A stretch of 36,760 nt of DNA, from the NCBI GenBank assembly GCA_020341755.1, contig CP070834.1, positions 1,243,837-1,280,596 on the forward strand, given 5' to 3'. A program made the position numbers and the translations under genes. The notes under the pieces are model-generated. The model had not been told where the DNA came from, did no database searches, and saw nothing but the letters and a program-made list of their open reading frames with translations. Below are positions 10,568 through 24,505 of the stretch, piece after piece (the first letter of the stretch is position 1; the number at the start of each line of letters is the position of its first letter). The DNA is from Caldifarciminota bacterium (GTDB lineage Bacteria > Hydrothermota > Tepidihabitantia > SM23-42).

Positions 10568-12682
10568 TTAAAATGTTAAGCGAATACCGATGAACGGTAT
10601 ACGCGGCATCATGAAAATGGCTTTCTGCATGCTGTAATTGCTGTTGTAGAGATACCCCTGTATATTCTTGTGATTAGTAATATTAAGAATGGTCAGGTAT
10701 ACTTCTCCAGTAAAACCAAACACATGGATATTTTTCCCAAAATGGACGTCGATTCGTTGGTATTGAGGAAGATATGATTTTTCAGGAGCATAGATTGGTG
10801 CCCATCTGTCCATAAGCCACTCAACGCCAACCAAATCATAGTATGCCGCACCAGTGGCAAACTGACACTTGAGAGTAATGAGGTAACCATTGGCAAATTC
10901 CTTCCCGTAAACAAAATTCAGAATATGTGGTCGGTGGGCGTTAGAGGTTCTAATTTCGGCGTCATATGGTGATGTTCGCTTGGATGCTGAGAACGAGTAT
11001 GATACCCAGCCGAATGAGCCGTGGTCGTTATGCTTACGGAGTGAAACCTCTATACCATTGGCATACCCGCTGCCGTCAAACGATGTATAGTACCCGCCGT
11101 CACGCATAAGATGACGATATTGTTTACGGTACAATTCGATATAACCGGTGAACAGGGGATGTATAGTATGCTCGATCCCACAGCATATTGTTTTTGAATA
11201 ATATGCCTTGGTTTCTATGGTCACGTATTCAAACGGCGGTGTCTGGTATTGAAGACCATACCCCATAAAAATGCGGGGTGTACCATCAAATAATAATCGT
11301 ATACGGGGTGAGAAAACGGGTTGCTTCACAAGAGGAAACCATTCAAGACGCTGTCCTAGTTCGCATACAAAGGGTGAGAGGATAGAAAAGCGTTGATCAG
11401 CATAGAAATATGCATAGATATCTGATGTGTCTATATCATATACAGTTTCTAGGGAATTTATGCCATAGAGTATATCCACGGCTTTTGGTCCATCATGTCG
11501 ATACACGTAGGTGCCTGTACCACCGCCTGTTTCCATCTTCACCAGACCGTTAGTATACTGTGCATGGTAGAACGCACCATATTTCTTGGTATATATATCT
11601 TCCTCGGCATGATTGATGGTTTGACTTACACCCGGGATTTCGCCAAACAGATGTTGTGTAAATTCACTATGAAAATATCCACCCCATGTTTTGATGGTAT
11701 TTGTTTCAGCATGTTCCCAAACACCGTTGATTGTCTGTCCGGAACCATCGATCTCCAGGTTTATACGTTCTCCAGCGATATTTGCTGTGATATTTGTTTT
11801 TTCCTGATTCTTGAATCCGTCAAAAATGAACCGCCCAAGGGGCGTTTGTATGGAAATATTGCCCTGGTGATCGATGTAGTAGGGTATGATAACATCTTCA
11901 ACAATACCAAGGTTCTCAAGAAGAACATCAAGATAATTTCTTCTGGAAGAAAAGGTGAAAGTAACGATCTTGTTTACCGGGCAGTGGTACATCCAGTCCG
12001 CTTCGATGAGATCGATACTGAGTGCACCACTGATGGTGAGAGGGTGTGGCTTTGATTGTATCGCGAGAACGGATGAAACGGCACCGCCGTAACGGGCTGG
12101 AAACGCACCTGCAAGAAAGTCGAAAGAGCCGATCATATCCGTGTTGAATATGGTGCTTATACCAAGAAAATGATAGGGATGTAGAATCTCGGTGCCATCA
12201 TAATATACTGCGTTTTCGTTCAATTCACCACCACGGACGTAGAGGAGACCGAGGAAATCGCACGGTGAATTCACACCGGGAAGGGTCTGAAGCGCCTTGA
12301 AGACATCCTTTTCCGCACCAGGAATTGTCCGCAGTTCATCGAATGTGACTTTGCGCCTGTCTGGCATAGATAGTTTTTCTGCTTGTACATGTATACTGTC
12401 GAGGGTGATCGGCAGGGCTTGTAACCCCACAGTAAGATGCGGTACCCTGTACGGGTAGGGAGCCAGATTGATAGTGTCTGATTTATAACCAACATGACTG
12501 ATGATCAATGAATTACTTCCTTCAGATACGCCGGTAATGGTAAACGTACCAGCGGAATCACAGACATGCACGTATTCGCGATCGTTGATGGAAACATGTG
12601 CCTGTAGCGGTATCTGTGTATCGCGATCGTACACAATACCGGTGACTGTGGAACAGAATAATGTGAATACGAGAATATGCAT
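10568..12682 (-). CDS. TonB-dependent outer-membrane receptor with N-terminal carboxypeptidase-like domain
   Basis: A 704-residue outer-membrane transporter. A signal peptide (MHILVFTLFCSTVTG) is followed by a CarboxypepD_reg-like beta-sandwich (~15-95, VYDRDTQIPLQAHVSI ... GTFTITGVSEGSNSLIISHVGYKSDTINL), then the plug domain (~115-215, including TLPGVNSPCDFLGLLYVRGGELNENAVYYDG). The rest is aromatic-rich barrel strands ending in IPFIGIRLTF with terminal Phe. I see no obvious TonB box. GTG 12685 opens the frame, but ATG 12682 shares its A with the upstream stop in TGATG and is the better start. It is the last gene of a four-gene operon; its neighbours are surface lipoproteins rather than known uptake enzymes, so the substrate cannot be named. 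Confidence 0.9.
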   Translation of the reverse strand: MHILVFTLFCSTVTGIVYDRDTQIPLQAHVSINDREYVHVCDSAGTFTITGVSEGSNSLIISHVGYKSDTINLAPYPYRVPHLTVGLQALPITLDSIHVQAEKLSMPDRRKVTFDELRTIPGAEKDVFKALQTLPGVNSPCDFLGLLYVRGGELNENAVYYDGTEILHPYHFLGISTIFNTDMIGSFDFLAGAFPARYGGAVSSVLAIQSKPHPLTISGALSIDLIEADWMYHCPVNKIVTFTFSSRRNYLDVLLENLGIVEDVIIPYYIDHQGNISIQTPLGRFIFDGFKNQEKTNITANIAGERINLEIDGSGQTINGVWEHAETNTIKTWGGYFHSEFTQHLFGEIPGVSQTINHAEEDIYTKKYGAFYHAQYTNGLVKMETGGGTGTYVYRHDGPKAVDILYGINSLETVYDIDTSDIYAYFYADQRFSILSPFVCELGQRLEWFPLVKQPVFSPRIRLLFDGTPRIFMGYGLQYQTPPFEYVTIETKAYYSKTICCGIEHTIHPLFTGYIELYRKQYRHLMRDGGYYTSFDGSGYANGIEVSLRKHNDHGSFGWVSYSFSASKRTSPYDAEIRTSNAHRPHILNFVYGKEFANGYLITLKCQFATGAAYYDLVGVEWLMDRWAPIYAPEKSYLPQYQRIDVHFGKNIHVFGFTGEVYLTILNITNHKNIQGYLYNSNYSMQKAIFMMPRIPFIGIRLTF

Positions 12683-13644
12683 CACAAACCGGTTTTGATA
12701 TGCGCAATAAAAAGTTTTGAGCTTGTGAGAAGGTATATCGTATCTTCGTTGATCACTCCGGATAATGGCGTTTCCAACAAATACATTGTTTCACATATAG
12801 CAAGTACTGGCGTATATTGCATATCGACCAGCAGTAACTCGTTACTATTGAGGACGAATCCGTACTCTTCTCCGATATATGCATAATAAACATTCGGCAG
12901 AGATAGGCTTGAGTAATTCCTATTGAGACCGTCTGATTCTATAGTGTAAATGAGTATGAAATCATCGTATTTATTGAAAGCATATAAACACCCGTGTTTT
13001 ACATGGAGGTTATATGGTCCAAATGCTGGAAATACCAGGGTCGCTGTGAGTACCGGATCAGACGGGTTCTGAACATTGACCACATTCAGGGTGTAATAAT
13101 CAGTTTGTACGAATGCATATACAGTATCGACGGCGAGGCTATTAATGGTGAATGGGAAATCCATTATAGCCTCGATCTCTGGAGCCCTGGGATTTGTGAT
13201 ATTGATTATGTACAGTGCTGAATTGCATGCGACGTATGTACGGTCATCAGATAACGCGATGATCGACGCCGGAGGTATATTTAAACTGCTGTATACTACA
13301 GCTTCGGTTGAAGTAAATTTGATAATCTCAAATCCCTGTTCTGACGCAAGGTATACGTATGGATCATCAACGAAAAAATCGTGTATAGTATAATTCGCAC
13401 CGTAAGTAGCAAGGATAGCGATTGAATCACCGGATATATAGCAGTTGAATATATTGCTCGCATTGTAATAATCATGGTCCAGTACGAATAAAATGCCGTC
13501 TTCGTAGATTATTTCATTACCTTCCAGTTGATACGACGCCGTTAGTTCGAGATATATCCCGTTGGCATCTTCATCTTCAGAGACAAAATCGAATTTTATG
13601 CAACTGGCAATACTCAGCATGATACAGATGACTATTTTATTCAT
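12682..13644 (-). CDS. LVIVD-type beta-propeller lipoprotein (second copy)
   Basis: A 320-residue exported lipoprotein. The signal peptide MNKIVICIMLSIASC has its lipobox Cys at 15. The mature part repeats a motif of about 40-45 residues, with strands such as YVACNSALYIINITNPRAPEIEAIMDFP and YYTLNVVNVQNPSDPVLTATLVFP. The [VI]xx[VI][ND]xxxPxxP core is that of LVIVD repeats, which fold as beta-propellers. The repeats fade toward the C-terminus, which ends in LLTSSKLFIAHIKTGL. It overlaps the upstream paralogue by 8 nt and shares one base with the TonB-dependent receptor gene. Probably surface-exposed and acting with that receptor; function unknown. Confidence 0.8.
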   Translation of the reverse strand: MNKIVICIMLSIASCIKFDFVSEDEDANGIYLELTASYQLEGNEIIYEDGILFVLDHDYYNASNIFNCYISGDSIAILATYGANYTIHDFFVDDPYVYLASEQGFEIIKFTSTEAVVYSSLNIPPASIIALSDDRTYVACNSALYIINITNPRAPEIEAIMDFPFTINSLAVDTVYAFVQTDYYTLNVVNVQNPSDPVLTATLVFPAFGPYNLHVKHGCLYAFNKYDDFILIYTIESDGLNRNYSSLSLPNVYYAYIGEEYGFVLNSNELLLVDMQYTPVLAICETMYLLETPLSGVINEDTIYLLTSSKLFIAHIKTGL

Positions 13645-14851
13645 ATTTAATCACTGAGTATTCAGGATAACCAGAAGAGAGTAAGGTTCCATGTATACAG
13701 AAAGGTCCCTCCAAGAAGCGGGTTTTGCCTATATAGACAGGATCGTTCATTGTGGATATATCATAGATATACATACTGTTAAAACCTAAGAATAGATAAT
13801 CACCAGCAGTAATTATATGGTAGGCAATCTTTTCAATGCAGTTTACCTGTACTGGGTTTGCAGGACTGATGATGTCATAAATCATGGTTGGGTTACTAGC
13901 AACAAACAAATAATGCTCGTTTATATGTAATTTGTTAGTATAGGTTGACAGGGTCGCTACGGTGTTGCCAGATTGCAGGTCAATGATGTAAATACCATTG
14001 CCACCTACGTATGCATAGTCGTTATCAACCACGATATGATTTCCGTATCCGGGCAGCGTATCTACGATTATCAGGGAGTCAGAATCAGTAATATCTATGA
14101 CGATAGGAATATGATCGCAGAGAACATAAGCGCGGTCATTGTCAATCCAGAAGTCTCCGGGTATATGCAGAGTAAGGCTATTCGTGAGTACTGGTTGATC
14201 AGGGTTTTCAAGATTGTAAACTGAAATACTGCCATAATAACCAGTGTGTGTTACGTATAAATACTGCCCGGAAATGAATAAATGATTGAATGCGAGCGCT
14301 GAATCGTGATATGTCTGCACCAGATAGGGAGTGTGGGGATTTGATATATTGATGATGGCAAGGTCTCCATTCGTTGCCATATATATTCGATCATTTGCGC
14401 TCACCATATCACCCGTTGCGGTAACGGCGCACGACGCAACTAGTGGGAATAGTACATCAAACTTCCATGCCGGCGACCACTCACTCCAACCACCATCAAT
14501 ATAGCGTGCGCGGGTCTGCCAGTAATACGTGTTATCACCGAAAAGGTGTTCAGGCGATAGACTGCTCCATAAGTGATTCGTGATGTTATATACAGTATCT
14601 GAAAATTCATCGGTTGTATCCACGCGCAGTTCGTATATAAGTGGTTCACCATAAAAGGGATTCAACGTATCTTCGCTGACATCCCAATGAAAATGAGGCG
14701 GATTATCAACGCTTGTGCTATCATCCTGAGGTTCTTGTAAATATGGAGCTGGCGGAAGGTTAATGGGATCGTACGGATTGAGATATTCCTTGCGCTCGCA
14801 GTAGAGTATGACCAGTAAAAGAATTAAAAATCCTTTACCACACCGAGACAT
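13637..14851 (-). CDS. LVIVD-type beta-propeller lipoprotein with fibronectin-like domain
   Basis: An exported lipoprotein of 404 residues. The frame opens at 14869, but the ATG at 14851 has AAAGGA 7 nt upstream and begins a normal signal sequence, MSRCGKGFLILLLVILYC, with the lipidation Cys at its end. Residues ~30-125 form an Ig/fibronectin-like domain (PPAPYLQEPQDDSTSVDNPPHFHWDV ... YYWQTRARYIDGGWSEWSPAWKFDV). Residues ~130-404 are LVIVD-like repeats, for example GDLAIINISNPHTPYLVQTY and YGSISVYNLENPDQPVLTNS. It overlaps the small upstream gene by 28 nt and its paralogue by 8 nt. A protein- or glycan-binding role at the cell surface is plausible but unproven. Confidence 0.82.
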   Translation of the reverse strand: MSRCGKGFLILLLVILYCERKEYLNPYDPINLPPAPYLQEPQDDSTSVDNPPHFHWDVSEDTLNPFYGEPLIYELRVDTTDEFSDTVYNITNHLWSSLSPEHLFGDNTYYWQTRARYIDGGWSEWSPAWKFDVLFPLVASCAVTATGDMVSANDRIYMATNGDLAIINISNPHTPYLVQTYHDSALAFNHLFISGQYLYVTHTGYYGSISVYNLENPDQPVLTNSLTLHIPGDFWIDNDRAYVLCDHIPIVIDITDSDSLIIVDTLPGYGNHIVVDNDYAYVGGNGIYIIDLQSGNTVATLSTYTNKLHINEHYLFVASNPTMIYDIISPANPVQVNCIEKIAYHIITAGDYLFLGFNSMYIYDISTMNDPVYIGKTRFLEGPFCIHGTLLSSGYPEYSVIKYE

Positions 14852-15195
14852 AATTTTTCCTTTGTACATTGGAATTCAATACCTACCTTATCGTCTTTAT
14901 CGGTTCTTAACCACATAATTGTGCTTATAGAGAAGTTGGTGACCGCCAATCCAAAGGAGATATTGCGGATTTTTTCACAGAACTTAATACGGGAGCGGAA
15001 CAGTTCGCACTCATCCGGATCAGTAGTTTCCTCATATTGATTGTAGTAATTTTCGCTCAGAATATCAGAACCGACCGCGACGAGACTGCACGCAAAACCT
15101 ATCACGCCGAAAATCTTCGCAGTTTTTTGGCTGTCGGCTGCGAGCCCGAGGGGGTAAAGAAACAACAATAGAAATACAAAAATTCTCCTCTCCAT
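14824..15195 (-). CDS. Small exported or membrane protein of unknown function
   Basis: 123 residues with an N-terminal hydrophobic signal (MERRIFVFLLLFLYPLGLAA, likely cleaved after ALA-like residues). A second hydrophobic stretch, IFGVIGFACSLVAVGSDIL, and a third around ISFGLAVTNFSISTIMWL suggest a small integral membrane protein. I do not recognise the family. It is the first gene of the surface operon: its own promoter ends 5 nt before the ATG, and its 3' end overlaps the next gene by 28 nt. This position suggests a role in assembling or anchoring the beta-propeller lipoproteins and receptor, which is inference only. Confidence 0.72.
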   Translation of the reverse strand: MERRIFVFLLLFLYPLGLAADSQKTAKIFGVIGFACSLVAVGSDILSENYYNQYEETTDPDECELFRSRIKFCEKIRNISFGLAVTNFSISTIMWLRTDKDDKVGIEFQCTKEKLCLGVVKDF

Positions 15196-15200
15196 GTGTA

Positions 15201-15229
15201 AATATATGCAGTGTAGTATAAAAAGTCAA
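15201..15229 (-). promoter_or_regulatory. Sigma70-type promoter of the surface operon, predicted leaderless
   Basis: On the minus strand TTGACT (15224-15229), 17-nt spacer, TATATT (15201-15206). Five bases separate the -10 box from the ATG at 15195, and there is no Shine-Dalgarno sequence. Confidence 0.65.
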
Positions 15230-21968: not shown

Positions 21969-22376
21969 ATGGCTGATCGGCAAACCCTGAGCATTTCAAA
22001 GGAAAGCATCGATAAACTGACCTATTTATTGGGCGATTTCTGTACTCAGGCAAACACGGTGTGGGCGATATTTGTAACGATATCCGGACAACTTTTAGTA
22101 CAACGCGGGTTTGTGCGTTCCTATGATGTCCTGGCGATCTCAGCGCTGGCATGCGGGGTATACAATTCGACAATGGAACTTGCCCACATCGTCGGTGAAC
22201 GAAAATTCAGTCAGTTCCTCCAGGAAGGCAAGCGTTTTAGTGTCTACTATATTGGCGTGGAGCGGGACTATTTACTCGTTTCGCTCTTTGATGATCGTAC
22301 ACTACCAGGAGTCGTTAAAGTTGCGAGTGAGGTTTTCTCCCAGAAGGCAAAGTCAGTAGTGGGTAATGGAAGATGA
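21969..22376 (+). CDS. mglB: Roadblock/LC7-domain protein, probable MglB
   Basis: 135 residues forming one Roadblock/LC7 domain: an N-terminal helix (SKESIDKLTYLLGDFC), strands AIFVTISGQLLVQRGF, the helix DVLAISALACGVYNSTMELAHIVG, and strands RFSVYYIGVERDYLLVSLFDD. MglB homodimers act as GTPase-activating protein for MglA. The adjacent MglA gene supports this, although the domain alone would also fit other Roadblock regulators. It has its own promoter separate from mglA. Its TGA overlaps the ATG of the DnaA-like gene (ATGA), so the two are translationally coupled, an unusual pairing. Confidence 0.88.
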   Translation: MADRQTLSISKESIDKLTYLLGDFCTQANTVWAIFVTISGQLLVQRGFVRSYDVLAISALACGVYNSTMELAHIVGERKFSQFLQEGKRFSVYYIGVERDYLLVSLFDDRTLPGVVKVASEVFSQKAKSVVGNGR

Positions 22377-24505
22377 AGCGAGAGCTTACCTTTGATAATT
22401 TTTTCGTATACGAAGGTAACCAGGTTGCCTTTCTTGCTGCAAAGAAAATCGTAGATTTCCCAGGTGAATTATTCAATCCCTTGTACATCTATAGCAATAC
22501 GGGCTTGGGTAAGACTCATTTGCTCTGGGCGCTGTTCAGTGAATTGAACAAAAAGTCAACTATGCTGTTTTTTTCTGCGAAGGAATTCGAGGGATATCTC
22601 GATAAAGCAAAGGTGTTTAATACACCGATCGTCGTTGATGATATCCATATGGTCTCGAGTACATACCAGGAAAAGATACTGGGTATAGTCGATACATTCC
22701 TAGCAAATAATAGGCAGATCTGTTTCTCGGGAAGTACGGCACCAAGGGAATTAAAGAATTTTGAACCGAAATTGATATCACGGATAGAGGGAGGCCTTGT
22801 TTGCGACATTGCCCCGCCGAAAGAAATGGCGCTTATCGACATGATCAAGAAAAAATCCGGGGAAGCGGGGATACTCCTTCCCGATGAGATTGCCCTTGAA
22901 CTGGCTCAGATCTCAACCGGTTCTATCCGCACTATTGAGGGTATGATCAACCGGCTGATCGCGTACTCGTCGCTGGGTAATGTCTCGCTTGATGTTGACA
23001 GCGCGCGAATGATATTAAAGGAGTTCTATCCCAAGGGTATCTACAGCCCGGTATCGTCTCTGCTCGAGGAGTTGAAAAAGAATGCGAGTGAAATACTCGA
23101 GGATGTGTCGGAAAAAATGGATGTTCGGGAGGAGTACAAGGAGAAGATTTATATATGGGAGATGAAAGGATTCGATACATCCTCGCTCAGTGTTCTGCTC
23201 GATGGAGATGTCGATGTGCTGAAATCCGAATACGATAAATTCATCGAGAAGGTCGGGCGGCTCATTGATTTGCAGAAAGCATTCGGTGCCCTGGACACGA
23301 GCTCGTGCATAGAGGATGCCATGAAGGTCGAGTCTATGTTGTTTTCACCGGATCATCTTGAGGAAATAGAACAGCTCATAGCCCGTATCAAGCAGGGTGG
23401 CGAAGAACCTGATAAAACAAAATCGTTCGATACGTTGATCATCGGTGAAGGTAACAAAAAAGCGTATGAAATATATCAGGGGCAGGTGGTTTCGTCACTC
23501 GGTGAGAAATACAACCCGTTCATCATCTTCGGTGGTACCGGTAGGGGGAAGACACGGTTTCTCGAAGCCATTCGCAACGACCTTCTATCACGGAAGAGGA
23601 ACGTAAAACTAATTGATTTAGAGACGAGTGAAGGCGTACCGCAAAAAGGATTATTGAGTACGTGTGACGCGCTCCTGATCGACAATTTCCACCTTGTGTT
23701 TTCATATCCGCAGGAAAAACGACAAGCACTGATCGATCGCCTTCTTGAACTGGTAAACGAGAAAAAGGCGATAATCGTCAGCAGTGAGATATTTTCATCG
23801 GCAGTCGCTTTTAGTGATCAAGAAAGGCTTTTTTTCGAATACGGGATCGAAGCCGAACTATCAGCACCGGATAGTAATATGGCGAGGATGTATATTTCCT
23901 CGCGCCTGCCCGCCGATACTTCGAATATGATCCTGCGCAGTGATTTCCCGCCGTTCAAATCGTTTAGCGAAGTAGACCAGTTCGTCGACGACGTTCAGAA
24001 GGGAGTAACCACTATCGAGGTAAAGGTAGGAGAAGTAGAAGAAGAGGTGGAAGAAAAACCACAAGAGGTTACCGCCGAAGTCCCTGTGGATGTTGTTCCA
24101 CTAGGCCTGGAGGGAGAAGAACAACTGATTGAAGGCGCTGTACAGGCCGAGCCGGTGGTCGAAGGTGATACACATGCTGAGCCGGTGGTCGAAGCACCGA
24201 AATCTGATGACCTCGTGCCGCTTGGGCTGGAAGGTGAGGTAGCGCCACAACCCGCAGTCCGGGTACCCGATGCTGCTGCGTCATCAGTGCCTGCAGAAGA
24301 AGAACAGATAAAGGTAGAGGATACATCTGAAGATGCTGAAATACACGTTAAGGAGGATGAGTCGTCTCCGGTACCCGAAGTGGCAGAACAAATCCCGACA
24401 GGTGTACGAACATCAGTACTAGAGACGGAATTTCTTGAGGAACGCCGGCAAGAGCGGTTTATCATAACGGACATACTGGGCGAATTGCTGGAGGATAATT
24501 ACTGA
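22373..24505 (+). CDS. Tandem DnaA-like AAA+ protein with acidic tail, no DnaA DNA-binding domain
   Basis: 710 residues in three parts. Residues 1-215 are a full DnaA domain III: LTFDNFFVYEGN, Walker A SNTGLGKT (41-48), Walker B VVDD (87-90), sensor 1 FSGST, the arginine finger in LISRIEGGL (Arg137), CDIAPP, and sensor 2 SIRTIEGMINRLIAY (Arg186). Residues ~221-345 are a charged helical linker in place of DnaA domain IV. Residues ~351-515 are a second DnaA/Hda-like module with Walker A GGTGRGKT (387-394) and Walker B LLIDN (434-438), but no arginine-finger box. Residues ~545-685 are an acidic, proline-rich tail with duplicated VPLGLEGE and AEPVVE words, ending in a conserved-looking IITDILGELLEDNY. 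It is coupled to mglB. Probably an ATP-dependent oligomeric switch in signalling rather than a replication initiator; this is inference. Confidence 0.88.
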   Translation: MKRELTFDNFFVYEGNQVAFLAAKKIVDFPGELFNPLYIYSNTGLGKTHLLWALFSELNKKSTMLFFSAKEFEGYLDKAKVFNTPIVVDDIHMVSSTYQEKILGIVDTFLANNRQICFSGSTAPRELKNFEPKLISRIEGGLVCDIAPPKEMALIDMIKKKSGEAGILLPDEIALELAQISTGSIRTIEGMINRLIAYSSLGNVSLDVDSARMILKEFYPKGIYSPVSSLLEELKKNASEILEDVSEKMDVREEYKEKIYIWEMKGFDTSSLSVLLDGDVDVLKSEYDKFIEKVGRLIDLQKAFGALDTSSCIEDAMKVESMLFSPDHLEEIEQLIARIKQGGEEPDKTKSFDTLIIGEGNKKAYEIYQGQVVSSLGEKYNPFIIFGGTGRGKTRFLEAIRNDLLSRKRNVKLIDLETSEGVPQKGLLSTCDALLIDNFHLVFSYPQEKRQALIDRLLELVNEKKAIIVSSEIFSSAVAFSDQERLFFEYGIEAELSAPDSNMARMYISSRLPADTSNMILRSDFPPFKSFSEVDQFVDDVQKGVTTIEVKVGEVEEEVEEKPQEVTAEVPVDVVPLGLEGEEQLIEGAVQAEPVVEGDTHAEPVVEAPKSDDLVPLGLEGEVAPQPAVRVPDAAASSVPAEEEQIKVEDTSEDAEIHVKEDESSPVPEVAEQIPTGVRTSVLETEFLEERRQERFIITDILGELLEDNY

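Follow-up and report, generated by a model that had tools for sequence, protein, structure and literature searches.

Does a TonB-dependent receptor that is encoded in one operon with two β-propeller lipoproteins use one of them as a lid over its barrel? The question is raised by a stretch of 36,760 nucleotides (the window; positions 1,243,837 to 1,280,596 of contig CP070834.1, assembly GCA_020341755.1) from Caldifarciminota bacterium, a member of the WOR-3 phylum whose genome (G000) is a single contig of 2,384,213 bases. Four open reading frames (ORFs) on the same strand follow one another here in the order S (a small membrane protein), P1 and P2 (the lipoproteins) and receptor, and we confirm that they form a genuine operon. 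From genome to genome these genes are repeated in the same order, and P2 is inherited jointly with the receptor. With a probability of about 0.55 we favour the reading that S-P1-P2-receptor is inherited as a single module for uptake across the outer membrane, with P2 as a propeller lid, resembling BtuBG and XusAB and built on another receptor lineage. No published description of this module was found in the literature that we searched on these families and on the phylum.

Recurrence of the operon

A receptor profile was searched over 27 genomes of the order, 65 of the class and 147 of the phylum. At E ≤ 1e-90 it matched 14 genomes of the phylum, or 15 of the 147 if a fragment in G012 (3.4e-65) is counted; the module is phylum-wide, yet present in a minority of genomes. 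The 13-member P2 profile, run over the same 147 genomes, gave 13 full-length matches of 287–408 bits followed by a partial one of 98 bits. Since it was built from these very 13 proteins its scores are circular, and the evidence lies in the gap to 98 bits.

All 13 P2 orthologues stand directly upstream of a receptor, and the receptors concerned belong to a single clade. The two genes overlap by 1 or 4 nt in 12 of them and are parted in G133 by an insertion of 1298 bases. The full order S-P1-P2-receptor is found in ten of the 13 genomes (G000, G024, G061, G128, G132, G133, G134, G137, G138 and, across two contigs, G004), while G019 and G020 have P2 and receptor only and G026 is truncated at a contig end. 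Conversely, P2 is present in 13 of the 15 receptor genomes; the contig of G006 begins within the receptor, and G012 is without P2. A gene order repeated in this manner across the phylum is not due to chance, and the receptor's constant partner is P2 rather than P1. P2 and receptor distances correlate (r = 0.97 over 78 pairs), as plain common descent would also yield. In a 395-genome sample of the phylum to which the Bacteroidales genome at L114 belongs, a sample without a positive control, no P2 was found at E ≤ 1e-30; the same profile recovers the 13 in WOR-3.

Where the flanks can be seen in f1 genomes, the locus is bordered by a radical SAM gene on one side and an MBL-fold gene on the other (Pfam assignments for the window), with McsB-like and Lol-like genes, named by reading from their N-termini, also nearby. 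In five loci free of the operon (L088, L090–L093) these two flanking genes directly adjoin each other. The neighbours differ in G024, G061 and six more distant genomes (G128, G132–G134, G137 and G138) and the order is kept, from which it would follow that the genes persist or travel as a unit. Read by eye, these differing contexts have no enzyme or importer in common and give no indication of a substrate.

Minor observations on these loci are a transposase-like ORF, recognized by reading, inside the G133 insertion (L206:6316-6864) and an extra PD40 propeller-type protein, judged by reading to resemble a lipoprotein, whose gene directly follows that of the receptor in G024 (L061:6052-7008) and G026 (L059:3038-3949). 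At L089:6700-8934 a 744-aa LVIVD protein is encoded between DUF4438-like and radical SAM genes, near the slot that the operon occupies elsewhere.

The propeller lipoprotein P2

A preliminary description of this DNA, made from the sequence alone, spoke of two LVIVD-type propellers. For P1 this holds (22.2 against a Pfam cut-off of 20.2). Window P2 scores 13.6, below that cut-off, yet its structure model is a propeller and, with E ≤ 0.1 as threshold, LVIVD matches are seen in ten of the 13 proteins of the family (best 2.6e-12). The model, built with three sequences, has a pLDDT of 69 and about 28 strands across residues 29–320, a number that would be compatible with seven blades; residues 1–27 and 57–78 are of low confidence (pLDDT <50).

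The P2 lipobox is regular. Among the 13 members residues 15–33, which begin at the lipid-bearing Cys, show 62% mean pairwise identity as against 28% for residues 34–320, and E25, D26, G29 and Y31 are invariant; the P2 (13) and P1 (9) alignments each include some close relatives. In the model the residues up to 27 have a pLDDT below 50, and those from 30 on form a strand. Structural comparison (Foldseek) matched the P2 model to propellers of many kinds, among them BamB at ranks 2, 10 and 17. Neither BtuG nor XusB was among the 50 structural rows listed in either comparison, which is uninformative because propellers of so many kinds match.

The receptor and its relatives

That the fourth gene encodes a TonB-dependent receptor, as had been proposed, is borne out by two domains which exceed their Pfam cut-offs, Plug (27.6 bits versus 23.9) and CarbopepD_reg_2 (33.6 versus 32.2). 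The Pfam scan matched no barrel family in the window receptor, and the β-barrel is accordingly putative. In the 13-member alignment the plug region is the best-conserved part. TonB_C domains occur at five places in the window genome; ExbB and ExbD were outside this search. Searched against the PDB as a single sequence the receptor gave two chance matches only, and a scan of the genome contigs with it found no relative.

Receptors related to the clade in the same genomes offer a second kind of pairing. We took the 22 loci whose receptors are most similar to the clade, not counting L071 and L080. Sixteen have a gene for a DUF4249-like lipoprotein within 55 bases of the receptor, by overlap or gap, and six do not. 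The profile used was built from two of the 16 (L069 and L082) and had no match in the 16 clade loci; in a Pfam scan covering L069 and L120, the former passes the DUF4249 cut-off and the latter falls below it. A tree built from 32 receptors sets off the 13 propeller-paired ones as one side of a branch (support 100/99) and the 16 DUF4249-paired ones as one side of another (100/100). This tree omits the long-branched L080, L129, L083 and L138, and its roots serve for drawing only. When these four were placed in a tree with seven clade members each of the two groups again held together, with the propeller-less L129 placed beside the propeller-paired one.

LVIVD proteins at other loci

The preliminary description had suggested checking for LVIVD lipoproteins beside TonB-dependent receptors across genomes. 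For the P2 family such an association is found throughout, as described above; for LVIVD proteins generally it is not. Among 60 LVIVD loci a propeller ORF was seen in 58 and a receptor-like ORF nearby in one (L178). These loci were the tops of the propeller match lists, taken in list order with about 5 kb per side, many being cut by contig ends; loci already counted elsewhere and two rows matching only the Fn3-like part were excluded. Among 12 other LVIVD loci two have a receptor, L081 and L080, the latter having been picked because both queries matched. The notion of LVIVD proteins as general receptor partners is rejected on these counts.

At L081:4794-8528 (G056) a 288-aa LVIVD protein is encoded 162 bases upstream of an unrelated receptor of SusC size (901 aa), possibly an independent propeller-receptor pairing. 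The LVIVD lipoproteins nearest to P2 in size (317–347 aa) belong to a recurring cluster, seen at L068 (G000 contig C1, 1885000-1904000) and, by reading, at L073 and L075–L079. It comprises a Mur-ligase-like gene, a CapC gene, which we take to be of the poly-gamma-glutamate capsule type, a 320–385 aa protein without an assigned family, and a Peptidase C25 protein that bears a type IX sorting tail. In L068 the gene of the lipoprotein, here of 322 aa, adjoins CapC and the Mur-ligase-like gene; the families were checked in L068 only.

P1 and S

P1 carries a non-standard lipobox (ILYC) with Tyr before the Cys. Most of its orthologues have regular ones (IFGC, FIGC, FLAC), and that of G004 reads LPRC. 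Orthologues occur in ten of the 13 P2 genomes, the G004 copy being split over two contigs. As in P2, the segment after the Cys is the best-conserved part (65% identity versus 34–39% elsewhere, nine members). Profile positions 54–127 gave weak matches to cytokine-receptor chains (E 0.04–0.6), and the N-terminal domain presumably has the Fn3 fold.

S matched no Pfam family at E ≤ 0.1 and no NCBIfam model at E ≤ 0.01. Its hydrophobic segments span residues 1–23 and 23–48, and D44, Y51, Y54, C63, E74 and R77 are invariant in a ten-member alignment.

Comparison with known systems

SusCD combines a receptor bearing a CarbopepD domain with a surface lipoprotein, and in these two respects the module, if its lipoproteins face outward, is like it. 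There was no SusD/RagB Pfam match in the 13 P2 members nor in P1 of G000 and G061, the two genomes in which P1 was scanned. On the receptor side, NCBIfam yielded no SusC-family hit for the window protein at E ≤ 0.01, and the orthologue in G132 reached 39.5 where the cut-off is 368.25. With SusD/RagB unmatched and the SusC/RagA model not reached, filing under SusCD was rejected. A receptor profile (A1) run against the PDB at E ≤ 0.01 returned one SusC homologue and no BtuB, the presence of a BtuB chain in the copy of the PDB used being unchecked.

The parallel with SusCD drawn in the preliminary description is fair as an analogy, but BtuBG and XusAB are the closer precedents (PMC10404256, PMC13142918). 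In BtuBG, which takes up vitamin B12 in Bacteroides, the lid is a seven-bladed, lipid-anchored propeller over the barrel, and barrel loops grip the linker that joins the lipid Cys to the propeller (PMC10404256). XusAB, for siderophore uptake in Bacteroides, likewise has a seven-bladed propeller lipoprotein as receptor lid (PMC13142918). In both, the propeller binds the ligand and has been proposed to pass it on to the receptor (PMC10404256, PMC13142918).

The module shares with BtuBG a lipid-anchored propeller and a TonB-dependent receptor, and the BtuBG linker region corresponds to the best-conserved segment of P2 (PMC10404256). It differs in the CarbopepD domain of its receptor, in having usually two propellers and in its phylum. 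It shares with XusAB a propeller lipoprotein paired with a receptor (PMC13142918). XusB, however, is a DUF4374 protein, and none of the 13 P2 members matches DUF4374 (E ≤ 0.1), on which ground filing under XusAB was rejected.

For the DUF4249-paired receptors there is a counterpart in BT2172, for which a DUF4249 partner has been proposed (BT2172-BT2173 type; PMC11003636). These receptors are related to those of the module, occur in the same genomes and also show a recurring receptor-lipoprotein gene pair; they differ in forming a separate tree group and in having the partner gene downstream of the receptor, where P2 is upstream.

Interpretation

The BtuBG/XusAB scheme agrees with the conservation of P2 after its Cys, with the fact that P2 is strictly paired with a single receptor clade, and with the TonB domains found in the genome. 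By analogy with those systems P2 would face outward and cover the barrel. It would be anchored in the outer leaflet through its lipidated Cys, and the conserved N-terminal stretch might dock on the outer loops of the receptor so as to hold the propeller over the barrel. Such a lid could bind a scarce small ligand, close and pass the ligand to the plug, with TonB, whose domains are encoded in the window genome, powering entry. P1 may be a second, optional capture or scaffolding protein carrying its propeller further out on an Fn3-like stalk, and S may be a membrane helper gained and lost together with P1. The preliminary description had left the choice between uptake and export; uptake is, on balance, the favoured direction, and nothing observed points to export.

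Several observations weigh against the lid. P2 residues 30–33 sit in a propeller strand in the model, so that their conservation may be due in part to closure of the fold instead of docking. The structure model of the receptor is unusable (pLDDT 31). P2 may also lie on the periplasmic side, as BamB does. The P2 profile (A2), run against the PDB at E ≤ 1, returned four unrelated chains and no kinship to BtuG was detected, the presence of a BtuG chain in the copy used being unchecked; nor does the DUF4374 search detect any kinship to XusB. In G019 and G020 neither P1 nor S was detected. G012 (94% complete) holds the first 149 residues of the receptor up to a contig end, 196 bases past the radical SAM gene, and no P2 was found upstream of this fragment or, at the thresholds applied, in the rest of the assembly; either the receptor can exist without P2 or the G012 copy is decaying.

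A rival explanation takes as its model BamB, a propeller lipoprotein that attaches to a barrel machine from the periplasmic side; the propellers would then face the periplasm and assist assembly or regulation of the receptor. BamB is among the top structural matches of P2, though many kinds of propeller match, and we know of no surface-export signal for the WOR-3 phylum, no search having been aimed at one; a study that reportedly deals with a Bacteroidota BAM complex bearing surface lipoproteins may be relevant to the point. Against this, BamB serves barrels generally and is not bound to one receptor. The dedicated receptor-propeller pairs BtuBG and XusAB are surface lids (PMC10404256, PMC13142918), and we regard this explanation as unlikely. 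It is also conceivable, if rather improbable, that the propellers capture a protein, a polymer or a cell on their own at the surface while the receptor is a co-regulated, physically separate importer. The dispensability of P1 and S in G019 and G020, the start of a receptor without P2 in G012 and the lack of a receptor beside most of the LVIVD proteins sampled in related genomes would all suit such an arrangement; the neighbourhood kept in 13 of 13 P2 orthologues, 12 of them overlapping by 1 or 4 nt and one bearing an insertion, does not. Finally the genes may be co-inherited as an operon and have no joint function. The single slot between radical SAM and MBL-fold genes shared by the f1 genomes with visible flanks would agree with this, and the order kept among different neighbours in G024, G061, G128, G132–G134, G137 and G138 makes it very improbable.

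If P2 is indeed a lid, the novelty lies in a variant form of TonB-dependent uptake assisted by lipoproteins, propeller lids as such being known already. The earlier suggestion of a new type of lid is therefore weakened (PMC10404256, PMC13142918). We suggest only tentatively, as a possibility with less than an even chance, one more independent origin of propeller-lidded TonB-dependent transport, outside the Bacteroidota, with one barrel, two propellers that differ in reach (P2 near the membrane, P1 on an Fn3-like stalk) and S as dedicated membrane helper. With the propeller-receptor module in WOR-3, and the DUF4249-receptor pairs beside it, a further phylum would be added to those with lipoprotein-assisted uptake, and the recruitment of propellers as lids would seem to have happened repeatedly. 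The first cultured representative of this phylum was reported in 2025 and has inner and outer membranes (PMC12285271). The 13 natural P2-receptor pairs constitute a defined, phylum-wide set for complex prediction and expression tests.

Features of the operon and its putative promoter

Successive ORFs of the module overlap by 4, 8 and 28 nt, so the overlaps of 1–28 nt given earlier were right as to overlap and nearly so as to range. The start of P1 is ambiguous (13637-14869, or 13637-14851 from an internal ATG); the value of 28 nt holds for the internal start, which is used in Table 1.

Table 1. Positions of the module genes and associated elements within the window
Feature	Position	Strand	Remarks
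TonB-dependent receptor	10568..12685	minus	705 aa; signal peptide, CarbopepD_reg_2, plug and putative β-barrel
P2, propeller lipoprotein	12682..13644	minus	320 aa; lipobox IASC, propeller model, 13 orthologues
P2 conserved segment from lipid Cys	13546..13602	minus	residues 15-33; C-x(n)-ED-x-[ND]-G-[IF]-Y
P1, lipoprotein	13637..14851	minus	Ig/Fn3-like domain (about residues 37-135), then LVIVD propeller
S, small membrane protein	14824..15195	minus	123 aa
Promoter-like TTGACT-N17-TATATT	15201..15229	minus	leaderless arrangement; 5 bases before ATG of S

A promoter-like sequence, TTGACT-N17-TATATT-N5-ATG, is present upstream of S, in agreement with the single leaderless promoter predicted in the preliminary description. 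A pattern of this kind precedes the first gene in six of 12 operons (G000, G019, G020, G024 with an internal start, G061 and G137). It also precedes 18 of 74 genes with an upstream gap of at least 40 nt, taken from the window and loci L060, L064, L068–L071, L123 and L126 of this and related genomes, compared with 0.5 in shuffles, the pattern being one defined by the analysis itself. A Shine-Dalgarno-like motif accompanies the listed start in 14 of these 74 genes. Judged from sequence, use of leaderless mRNAs may perhaps be widespread in this lineage.

Elsewhere in the window, positions 22373-24505 encode a 710-aa protein with two tandem DnaA-type ATPase domains, near DUF4388/TPR, CheR and CheB genes.

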